Below the pieces are notes generated by a model. That model was not told the origin of the DNA and ran no database searches. It saw nothing but the letters and a program-made list of their open reading frames with translations. DNA of 64,000 nt from Lactiplantibacillus plantarum (GTDB taxonomy: Bacteria > Bacillota > Bacilli > Lactobacillales > Lactobacillaceae): NCBI RefSeq assembly GCF_014131735.1, contig NZ_CP039121.1, forward strand, positions 2,108,001 through 2,172,000. Direction: 5' to 3'. The translations under genes and the position numbers were made by a program. Shown one piece after another: positions 6,313 to 36,481 of this stretch. Position 1 is the stretch's first letter, and every line of letters begins with the position of its first letter.

Positions 6313-6474
6313 TACTCAACATTGCTATTTTTATTCGATAACACATTCGGTTCGTGATTATTCAGTATCAGTCATGATTAAAACGTGCCATTTCTTAAGT
6401 TCAAAAGCAACCAGCTTAAGACCGCTGGAAAAAGTTCGGACTAGCGTAGACTTGCTTGGTGTGTGCGCCTTACA

Positions 6475-6632
6475 CCGACTTCCAGGCATTTCTGCCAATT
6501 GCCGGAACGTGGTGGGCACAGATTTGAGCCGAAAAATCACGTCTCAAATACTGGCCTTTCACTAACCAAGCACAAGACGCTTGCTAAGTGAAATTTCACC
6601 ACTGAGCATTGGCCGAAACGCCTTCCAGTCGG
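6475..6632 (+). ncRNA. Cloverleaf-like structured module A-X (candidate RNA or DNA structure)
   Basis: The outer arms CCGACTTCCAGGC... and ...GCCTTCCAGTCGGG pair over about 25 bases. Inside are a helix GTGGTG/CACCAC (6509-6514 with 6597-6602), a hairpin ATTTGAG/CTCAAAT (6522-6528 with 6543-6549) and a hairpin from TTTCACTAACCAAGC to GCTTGCTAAGTGAAA. Three of these helices are matched by compensatory changes in the copy at 23996-24152. The module is followed 12 bases later by ATGGCAGAC. Confidence 0.5.
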
Positions 6633-6644
6633 GACAGTATTCGA

Positions 6645-6674
6645 ATGGCAGACGGTGAGGTACCCAACTTTTGA
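6645..6674 (+). pseudogene. Decayed short frame MADGEVPNF after module A-X
   Basis: ATG at 6645 opens MADGEVPNF and meets TGA after nine codons. The peptide resembles the start of the longer frame on the other side of the element (MADERPPNL), and the base context TTCGAATGGC is the same. It is either a decayed copy or a very short leader peptide. Confidence 0.35.
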
Positions 6675-6777
6675 TGAATTGGTCGTTGCTTTTCATAAAC
6701 GGTAATTTTGTCAATCAACTGTCAGACTAAAAATAATATTGAGATGGCTCACTAATCCTGAATCGGTATAGTAGGAT

Positions 6778-6885
6778 TTAATCTCTTGACAGAGTGCTTA
6801 ATGCACCTAGCGCTTTGTTTAAACTTCCAGCATCAAAATAGTCAGCGACTAATTGTACCAAATTAGGTGGTCGTTCATCAGCCAT
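6778..6885 (-). CDS. Small protein of repeat element A, 35 aa
   Basis: A 35-codon frame, too short for most gene callers, starts at the ATG at 6883-6885 directly after palindrome A-Y and ends at TAA at 6778-6780. It begins MADERPPNLV and continues through an amphipathic, helix-prone stretch (QLVADYF, AGSLNKALGAL). It has no Cys and no membrane segment. The corresponding position in element B keeps the start but has GAA to TAA and CAA to TAA changes, so that copy is broken. There is no strong ribosome binding site, only a weak GGGAAA about 10 bases upstream. Translation is unproven. The frame could also be the relic of a longer gene. Confidence 0.4.
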   Translation of the reverse strand: MADERPPNLVQLVADYFDAGSLNKALGALSTLSRD

Positions 6886-6897
6886 TCGAGCAGTTTC

Positions 6898-7067
6898 CCG
6901 ACCGGAGGGGCTGGGTGGACAATGCTCAGTAGCCAAATTATTCTTAGCTGGAAGTGGTCTGCTTCCGGCTTAGAATAAGACTCGTATTTGAGATGACGCG
7001 GGTTATGCGTTAGCTCAAATCGACGTCGGCTGCGTTCCAGCAATTGTCACCCAGCCCCGGAGGTCGG
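6898..7067 (-). ncRNA. Cloverleaf-like structured module A-Y (candidate)
   Basis: Read on the minus strand, arms CCGACCTCCGGGGCTGGGTG and CACCCAGCCCCTCCGGTCGG form the outer stem. Two inner hairpins follow, ATTTGAG/CTCAAAT and a long one with TTATTCT and AGAATAA at its base. The plan is the same as module A-X although the outer and second helices have different sequences. It lies between the right terminal repeat and the 35-codon frame. Confidence 0.5.
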
Positions 7068-7203
7068 CATAGGACGCACACCGGCTGACGAACAACAATC
7101 TAAACTTGGCACGTTTTAATCATAATTCATGAAATATTTACTTGCACAATGCGGATCGATTACGAATCATACTAAAGTAACGAGTACGCCGCCAATAATC
7201 ACT

Positions 7204-23362: not shown

Positions 23363-23446
23363 TGGCCGTGTTTTTCATCAATTGTTGTTGAAAGGTGCCG
23401 GCAATTGACCCCGGATACTCGTTCGTCAGCATGTACGTGTCCTATT

Positions 23447-23613
23447 CCGACCTCCGGGGCTGGGTGACAATTGCTGGAACGCGGCCGACGTCGATTTGAG
23501 CTAATGCCCAACCCTCATCATCTCAAATACGAGTCTTATTCTAAGCCGAAAGCAACCCACTTTCAGCTAAGAATAATTTGGCTACTGAGCATTGTCACCC
23601 AACCCCTCCAGTC
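23447..23613 (+). ncRNA. Cloverleaf-like structured module B-Y (candidate)
   Basis: Outer arms CCGACCTCCGGGGCTGGGTG and CACCCAACCCCTCCAGTC enclose hairpin ATTTGAG/CTCAAAT and a second hairpin with TTATTCTAAGC and GCTAAGAATAA. It is the reverse-oriented relative of A-Y. The right outer arm has drifted (AACCC for AGCCC), in line with decay of the frame behind it. Confidence 0.45.
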
Positions 23614-23747
23614 TAAAGTGTGCGAGGGATCACGGGTTGAATTTAAGCATTGCCTAGTCAACGGATTAATGCGGTTTGGGCATCAGTCCGTTGGCGTAGC
23701 AAGCACAGGATTCAGCGTCACCGCGCGCGTTTCGTTAAGCCGCTCGA

Positions 23748-23840
23748 ATGGCTGATTAACGGCCACTTAACTTGGTGTAATTGGTCTTTTAATACCGGAG
23801 CTTCAAATAAAGCGTCAGGTGTAAATCTCTATGTTTATCG
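23748..23840 (+). pseudogene. Broken copy of the 35-codon frame of element A
   Basis: The frame opens ATG GCT GAT like that of element A but has TAA in place of GAA at codon 4 and TAA in place of CAA at codon 11. The codons between still read R-P-L-N-L-V. Further stops follow. The end given is approximate. Confidence 0.4.
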
Positions 23841-23953
23841 AGAAGTTCAATTATTGCTACATTGGTTCAGAAATAGTGAACCATAACAATATCATTTTCT
23901 GTCTGACCGTTGCTTGACAAAGTTATCGTTTATAAAAAGTAATGACAAGTCCA

Positions 23954-23983
23954 TCACAAGTTAGGTACATCTTCGTCCGCCAT
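23954..23983 (-). pseudogene. Short frame MADEDVPNL after module B-X
   Basis: An ATG at 23981-23983 opens MADEDVPNL and then TGA. It has the same length and position as MADGEVPNF in element A. Nine-codon length in both copies suggests either one ancestral stop or a real leader peptide. Confidence 0.35.
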
Positions 23984-23995
23984 TCGAATACTGTC

Positions 23996-24152
23996 CCGAC
24001 TGGAAGGCATTTCGGCCAATGCTCAGCGGTGAAATTCCACTTAGCAAGCGTTCTTTGCTTGGTTAGTGGAAGACCAGTATTTAAGACGTGGTCTTCGGCT
24101 TAAATCTGTGTCCACCGCGTTCCAGCAATTGGCAGAAATGCCTGGAAGTCGG
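23996..24152 (-). ncRNA. Cloverleaf-like structured module B-X (candidate)
   Basis: It has the same helices as A-X but with paired changes: GCGGTG/CACCGC (24026-24031 with 24113-24118) for GTGGTG/CACCAC, ATTTAAG/CTTAAAT (24079-24085 with 24099-24105) for ATTTGAG/CTCAAAT, and TTCCAC/GTGGAA (24035-24040 with 24066-24071) for TTTCAC/GTGAAA. The outer stem CCGACTGGAAGGCATTTC pairs with GAAATGCCTGGAAGTCGG. Confidence 0.5.
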
Positions 24153-24305
24153 CTTAGGACGACGCTAGCCAAGCAAGTTTATGCAAAACTCGAACTTTTT
24201 CCAGCGGGCCTTAGCTGGTTGTTTTTGGCCTTATAGCGGCACCTTTCAACAATTTTTCGTGTATAAGTTTAAGCCTTCAATCCCAGTTTGTCTGCGTGCC
24301 AATAT

Positions 24306-26662: not shown

Positions 26663-26990
26663 TCCGTGGTGCCACCTCACTTCGTAATAACTTCACAGTT
26701 ATTACCTCAGGGAGTTTTGTGATAATAAAAAAATCGTCCTTAGGCCAGCATGCCTAAGAGGACGATTTAATCGCGGTTCCACCTCATATTCACTAGTTGC
26801 TCACACAACTAATCTCAACGAGTTTATCACTAAACTCCGCCGCTAACGAGGCCAACCGAAACAGCTTACTAACTTCAGCTGTCCAACTCACAGATGTGGT
26901 TCGTTGTAATCCTTGGTCATCTTCCCATCATCGATAACTCGCTCGGCAAGGTCCTTACAACTACTCTTCTGTTCCCTGTTTTTTAATGTT
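26663..26990 (-). promoter_or_regulatory. T-box leader with one specifier stem and two antiterminator platforms
   Basis: A tRNA-sensing leader of the ABC transporter operon. Stem I begins with helix ACAGA/TCTGT and the AGAGTA loop strand. The opposite strand reads GAAC-CAC-A, so the specifier is CAC (His) at 26896-26898; the aligned valS leader reads GAAG-GTA-G (Val). The first T-box sequence AGGTGGAACCGCG is at 26772-26784 with a terminator at 26732-26768. A hairpin GTAATAACT/AGTTATTAC follows, then a second T-box sequence AGGTGGCACCACGG (26664-26677) and the second terminator. The gap between platforms is far too short for a second stem I. The variable bases (A, then C) do not fit the C73 of usual tRNA-His, so specificity is tentative. 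Confidence 0.85.
26732..26768 (-). terminator. First T-box-controlled terminator
   Basis: On the minus strand AAATCGTCCTCTTAGGCA pairs with TGCCTAAGGACGATTT around a short loop and is followed by a seven-T run. Confidence 0.9.
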
Positions 26991-36215: not shown

Positions 36216-36475
36216 TAAAAAAGCCCACTCATCCTATTAGACTAGGACGAATGGACTTCGCGGTACCACCTAATTTTAAAGCCATCACAAGTGATCGCTT
36301 TACAGCTTAAACATCGTTGTTAACGAACGGTGTATCCCGTCCGGCTATTCCTACTAAAACAGTTCAGAATAGCAGCTCGCAAGCTACCTTCACGCTAAAA
36401 CCGCCAAGCGTGTTTCACTGTTCACGCTCTCTCTGTTGACGTTGTTTACCGCTACTCTCTTGCTCATTGCTGGTT
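36216..36475 (-). promoter_or_regulatory. Valine T-box leader of valS
   Basis: Stem I carries helix GCAAG/CTTGC, the AGAGTA strand and the specifier strand GAAG-GTA-G with GTA (Val) at 36385-36387. The T-box sequence AGGTGGTACCGCG is at 36259-36271; its variable base T pairs with A73 of tRNA-Val. The terminator at 36216-36255 has CCATTCGTCCTAGT folding on the complementary arm, followed by TTTTTT. Uncharged tRNA-Val should allow read-through into valS. Confidence 0.95.
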
Positions 36476-36481
36476 GTCACT

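Follow-up and report, generated by a model that had tools for sequence, protein, structure and literature searches.

What maintains a fold whose paired bases differ from copy to copy? The question is raised by two related noncoding regions in the window, the 64,000-nucleotide stretch of Lactiplantibacillus plantarum DNA that was analysed as a whole. According to the initial annotation, positions 23996-24152 and 6475-6632 differ by paired substitutions in three separate helices, and all three differences are present as described: GCGGTG/CACCGC in the former region against GTGGTG/CACCAC in the latter, ATTTAAG/CTTAAAT against ATTTGAG/CTCAAAT, and TTCCAC/GTGGAA against TTTCAC/GTGAAA. We found that 23996-24152 is one half of a dispersed, noncoding, nonautonomous mobile element that carries two divergent homologous modules, X and Y.

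The order of parts in these elements is outer end, inner repeat, X (directed leftward), middle region, Y (directed rightward), inner repeat and outer end. X on the left and Y on the right are homologous structures on opposite strands, with their 5′ ends facing each other. Two copies with decayed ends, A and B, lie in the window. B is inverted relative to A, and the strand on which X folds best is the minus strand of A and, equivalently, the plus strand of B. The features of both copies are as follows (bit scores are those of covariance model R1):

6341-7157, plus strand: element A with decayed outer ends; the outer limits are approximate, and an IS982-type terminus is recognisable at 7140-7156
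6374-6390, plus strand: left arm of the inner terminal inverted repeat of A, ATGATTAAAACGTGCCA
6411-6428, minus strand: terminator-like hairpin 3′ of X of A, CCAGC..GCTGG followed by a short T run
6475-6632, minus strand: module X of A (172.2 bits), which folds on the minus strand
6633-6897, no strand assigned: middle region of A, between the divergent modules
6898-7067, plus strand: module Y of A, paralogue of X (184.9 bits), which folds on the plus strand
7107-7123, plus strand: right arm of the inner terminal inverted repeat of A
23385-24252, minus strand: core of element B, long form, inverted relative to A
23385-23400, plus strand: inner terminal inverted repeat of B, TTGTTGAAAGGTGCCG, the same variant as in its partner arm
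23447-23615, minus strand: module Y of B (163.7 bits)
23616-23731, minus strand: extra module Z of about 118 bp, found in long copies at the edge of Y; limits approximate
23996-24152, plus strand: module X of B (171.1 bits), with the limits used by the initial annotation
24237-24252, plus strand: other arm of the inner terminal inverted repeat of B

Module Z, also present in L016, L017, L020-L024, L026 and L028, contains a long hairpin and a possible pseudoknot (by eye). Another copy, L013, cleanly lacks X. Short direct repeats (CTTCCAG) flank the module and the loss apparently took place between them, which fits what is expected of palindrome loss by slippage. The minus strand of the window also carries two T-box leaders, at 36240-36476 and 26755-26985 (Rfam RF00230, 117.2 and 115.1 bits).

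Model R1 detects exactly four modules in the window, with E below 1e-40; the score of a fifth match, 15.8 bits, is no better than chance. Element A has 77 matches in the home genome, grouped by hand into about 40 places, and the 28 longer copies there span 605-990 bp between matched ends. A survey of the genus found matches to element A in 15 of 21 genomes (home included). The covariance-model search of genomes proposed alongside the initial annotation carried the family further: R1 matches at least 42 of 201 Lactobacillaceae genomes (home included), in 9 of 40 genera. In a sample of 295 genomes from the order it matches at least 11, every one of them within Lactobacillaceae. These genome counts are lower bounds, since at most 14 and 9 candidates, respectively, were scored per genome and the filters were strict. 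Among the matches listed, the exact pattern occurs in Lactiplantibacillus, Companilactobacillus and Lacticaseibacillus, as well as in Pediococcus argentinicus, Loigolactobacillus bifermentans and an uncultured Lactobacillus. Y matches lie in nine plasmids, seven of Ligilactobacillus salivarius and two of L. plantarum. Opposite-strand pairs were seen at 19 distinct places among 49 sources, and all 19 point outward, with the left module on the minus and the right module on the plus strand; the remaining places hold a single module.

Some individual arrangements were also recorded. L204 has an outward pair together with a weak third match facing inward (27.8 bits), three modules lie in tandem on one strand at G098:C4:201750-202226, and several copies in genome G144 (L214-L224) have a hairpin 5′ of the module, variable in sequence and with its pairing kept (by eye). 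The covariance models of Rfam 15 gave no match over the elements. A phage origin was rejected: element A had no match in phage records, and the exact pattern was absent from viral contigs.

X and Y cross-match, and pure sets were obtained by removing 17 Y-type sequences from 108 X matches and 8 X-type sequences from 106 Y matches, leaving 91 and 98 modules; the mixed sets gave the same covariation picture. In the 91 X modules, which come from four genomes, the three base pairs at issue read on the folding strand U-A 58, C-G 30 and U-G 3 for the first, U-A 50, C-G 39, U-G 1 and C-A 1 for the second, and A-U 71, G-C 17, G-U 2 and A-C 1 for the third, so that the exceptions amount to a few cells, mostly wobbles on one strand. 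X of A and X of B represent two sequence types, each common to many copies, and mixed copies exist as well (for example, L016 and L020). Because both types are so widely shared, the contrast between A and B reflects few events and is no proof by itself.

The assertion that these changes prove conservation of the fold was thus too strong for two copies; larger alignments bear out conservation of the fold as opposed to the sequence. The first comprised 20 of 26 representatives of both modules, with partial and some redundant ones left out. Its paired cells are complementary in 98.7% of cases, against 84.1% after shuffling and at most 41.9% with partners slid; the covariation score is 0.453, against 0.179 shuffled and at most 0.072 slid, and both sides change in 25 of 50 pairs. 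The second contained 53 matches from 35 further loci: 22 belong to other genera and 8 to this genus (two of the latter are plasmids), and 5 were unassigned to either; two places occur twice. In this alignment, which was fitted to the model and so leans towards it, both sides change in 48 of 50 pairs, 95.6% of cells pair and the covariation score is 0.707 (0.165 shuffled). When 50 distinct sequences of the second alignment were aligned with MAFFT, independently of the model, both sides changed in 41 of 43 pairs. Chance pairing is ruled out by the shuffled and slid controls of the first alignment and by the second one. A larger alignment without excess covariation had been named in advance as the refuting outcome; the excess is present. 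Across genera, both X and Y retain a single fold, in each case on the module's own strand.

The two strands of a module differ markedly in folding. For the 91 X modules the folding energy is -79.0 kcal/mol on the minus strand versus -57.7 on the plus strand, and for the 98 Y modules it is -65.8 on the plus versus -25.0 on the minus strand. On the better strand, the paired cells of X comprise 4952 Watson-Crick, 150 G-U, 14 A-C and 50 other combinations, and those of Y 5025, 403, 16 and 23, an excess of G-U over A-C of about 11-fold in X and 25-fold in Y. The second alignment has 66 G-U and 23 A-C wobbles; its MAFFT counterpart has 71 G-U, 33 A-C and 88 other mismatches on the sense strand, and Watson-Crick covariation appears on the antisense strand also (35 of 37 pairs). 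Since G-U far exceeds A-C, it is one strand that folds, and the folding molecule is most likely RNA.

Beyond the inner repeats we distinguished two types of outer end, T1 and T2. Among 88 elements the ends were called as T2-T1 in 21, T1-T2 in 16, T1-T1 in 9 and T2-T2 in none, with no call in 42. Thirty-five elements, 33 from G013 and 2 from G000, are bounded by T1 and T2 and measure 325-1077 bp; the module adjoining T1 is X in 17 of them, Y in 17 and uncalled in 1. Perfect 8-mer target duplications flank 7 of the 35, and 12 have duplications at 7 or more of 8 positions, compared with a mean of 0.23 (maximum 3) and no perfect ones in 1000 shuffles; in the other 23, no duplication reaches 7 of 8. 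Outer ends of the Lactiplantibacillus elements match inverted repeats of the IS982 family, many copies having decayed ends, and fragments of IS982 transposase lie beside such termini (NF033520, E 1.4e-18 and 4.5e-11). Elements of about 1 kb with a related transposase, found in other genomes of the genus, have the inverted repeats ACGCATTGTGCTAGTTAA / ACGCGTTGTGCTAGTTAA, and one of them (L371) has a 9-bp duplication. The only IS982-type match in the home genome is an interrupted relic (L363 1841-4188) with the same ends as the repeats, broken by reading frames that resemble a disrupted IS3 element. Repeats in G144 and G068, from other genera, have different ends, so IS982 does not move all elements; an ISL3-family source of the G144 ends was rejected, as the ISL3-family copies there end differently. 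At L357 1205-1259 lies a 55-bp palindrome in which two outer ends stand face to face with no core, perhaps a core-deleted copy. It is unlikely that the core was inserted into a widespread palindromic repeat: none of the end-to-end pairs among the 35 elements is below 325 bp, and L357 gave the one 55-bp palindrome.

The core occurs in both orientations. A comparison of flanks in two species pairs yielded 13 orthologous insertions, 10 matched on both flanks and 3 on one only (L014/L076, L085/L117 and L091/L114). In 6 of the 13, of which 4 are matched on both flanks, the core runs the opposite way with respect to the flanks. In L080/L099 (both flanks matched) the flipped cores are each other's best matches in left end and middle (0.95 and 0.84), and in L085/L117, where one flank is matched and the contig ends, in X, middle and left end (0.99, 0.96 and 0.90). 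By this similarity, the flipped core in these two pairs is recognisably the same one; in the other inverted pairs, replacement by another, oppositely oriented core is possible.

Such inversion, together with the marks of transposition and the fact that each element is a large imperfect palindrome, would suit modules that act as single-stranded DNA hairpins or cruciforms for a nuclease, transposase or replication protein, with any RNA incidental. Nor is the strand bias proof of RNA, because G-T pairs are tolerated in single-stranded DNA hairpins too. We nevertheless regard a DNA role as rather unlikely: a cruciform exposes both strands equally, whereas the modules are strand-biased and placed on opposite strands, and the fold is kept in genomes where the element ends are different. 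Of the options listed in the initial annotation, a structured single strand therefore fits the modules, and a double-stranded cruciform, which predicts no strand bias, does not.

At orthologous loci (12 of the 13 pairs could be ranked), the ortholog is the best match for the right end in 7 of 11 comparable pairs and for the left end in 6 of 12; for the middle this holds in 4 of 12, for X in 3 of 12 and for Y in 1 of 11, the ranks of modules being noisy as modules are alike everywhere. In L021/L077, for example, ends and middle agree at 0.95-0.98, and X, at 0.91, ranks eighth. As the ortholog is so seldom the best match for X and Y, these rankings suggest that modules have been exchanged between copies. 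They also lend something to the idea that transposition, together with the exchange of modules, spread a small number of founder types whose paired differences are inherited and without present function at most loci, and so do the two main types of X with their mixed copies. We consider this unlikely as a full account, although it is in part compatible with our main reading: freely diverging copies should break pairs, and few are broken, while the model matches span 9 genera.

The inner terminal repeats behave differently from the outer parts of the arms. In 80 two-ended copies, agreement between the arms over their inner 16 bp is 0.880 for arms of one copy and 0.767 for arms of different copies (permutation maximum 0.801), and the outer 10 bp show no coupling. 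Of 182 deviations of the left arm from the genome consensus, 96 recur in the right arm of that copy, where 30.2 would be expected, and mismatches between the inner repeats have no strand bias (52 versus 58). Two sources of this coupling are possible: the arms may recombine or convert each other, a process that would flip the core as well, or pairing may be under selection. The coupling is also what quasi-palindrome correction predicts, in which template switching copies arm onto arm and produces paired changes with no selection on the fold, and the co-change is seen at fixed loci too (L018/L067 and L025/L064). Arm correction, another of the options first listed, thus stays a live explanation for the terminal repeats, given their covariation within copies and the inverting core. 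For the modules we find it quite improbable: correction would tend to erase loops, and the modules keep persistent, non-complementary internal loops along with 98.7% pairing and wobbles on one strand. It may hold for the ends and not for the modules.

Signals of transcription were sought around the modules. A hairpin with the same 5-bp stem (CCAGC..GCTGG) and a short T run lies 3′ of X, on its outward side, in 22 of 28 home copies and weakly hints at a transcript end. Promoter matches in element A are near the shuffled level (3 versus a mean of 1.4), with no clear promoter, and so are terminator matches (1 versus 0.8). At 38 single-module loci, the gene on the 5′ side lies on the module's strand in 18 cases and on the opposite strand in 19, and the gene on the 3′ side in 16 and 21, respectively. 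A cis-acting leader, 3′-UTR stabiliser or two-way terminator of adjacent genes is therefore very unlikely, single modules having no orientation preference towards either neighbour, even with the terminator-like hairpin after X and with 25 of 78 elements (those with both neighbours called) lying, in raw counts, between convergent and 11 between divergent genes.

We lean, with somewhat better than even confidence, towards modules that encode a trans-acting RNA carried on a nonautonomous transposon, or an RNA serving the element itself, which we take as the best remaining reading. An IS982-family transposase, to judge from the ends, would move the element in trans; the modules would be made as two divergent RNAs; copies would swap modules; and the RNA would act in trans or serve the element, since module orientation is unrelated to the neighbouring genes. 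A bolder version, which we hold to be improbable, is a mobile RNA system spanning the family, with conserved structured RNA genes often paired head to head, interchangeable insertion-sequence ends (IS982-type in Lactiplantibacillus, other types elsewhere), a flipping cassette, homogenised modules and an RNA perhaps involved in exchange or mobility.

The elements are most likely the L. plantarum supermotifs (LPSMs) of Wels et al. 2009 (J Bacteriol 191:3420, doi 10.1128/JB.01672-08), an identity drawn from the description of that work in PMC5643018. There, LPSMs are described as intergenic, conserved, noncoding sequences of 800-1000 nt with many copies and a cruciform structure, reported to be transcribed, of unknown function and absent from other Lactobacillus species. 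The intergenic repeats described here, 605-990 bp long, at about 40 home places and with a cruciform-like fold, agree with this, but related modules occur in other genera, against the reported absence; strand bias, IS982 ends, target duplications and inversion come from the present analysis and do not figure in that description. A search of the open literature, with subscription papers outside its scope, recognised no other description of the elements, and the parts consulted of PMC2267715, PMC2527527 and PMC10969869 contain none. The elements resemble IS982-family insertion sequences and their nonautonomous derivatives in their termini and in the target duplication, which is 8 to 9 bp long; they differ in lacking a transposase, in their paired structured modules and in a core that inverts within inner repeats. 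The BOX and RUP repeats of Streptococcus pneumoniae are modular or IS-mobilised intergenic repeats able to fold; they may be likened to the present elements by description and are much shorter. ROOL, GOLLD, OLE and HEARO are large ornate noncoding RNAs, some of them found in lactobacilli, whereas the elements studied here have no match among the Rfam 15 models.

Compared with that description of the 2009 report on L. plantarum, the additions made here are the wider spread, the insertion-sequence ends and the core that flips. They concern a family of structured molecules, probably RNA, that reaches dozens of copies in certain genomes of bacteria common in food and the gut and has no matching entry in Rfam 15. 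Its strand bias, IS982 ends and core inversion open sharp tests of which protein binds it, what moves it and why its modules stand head to head.
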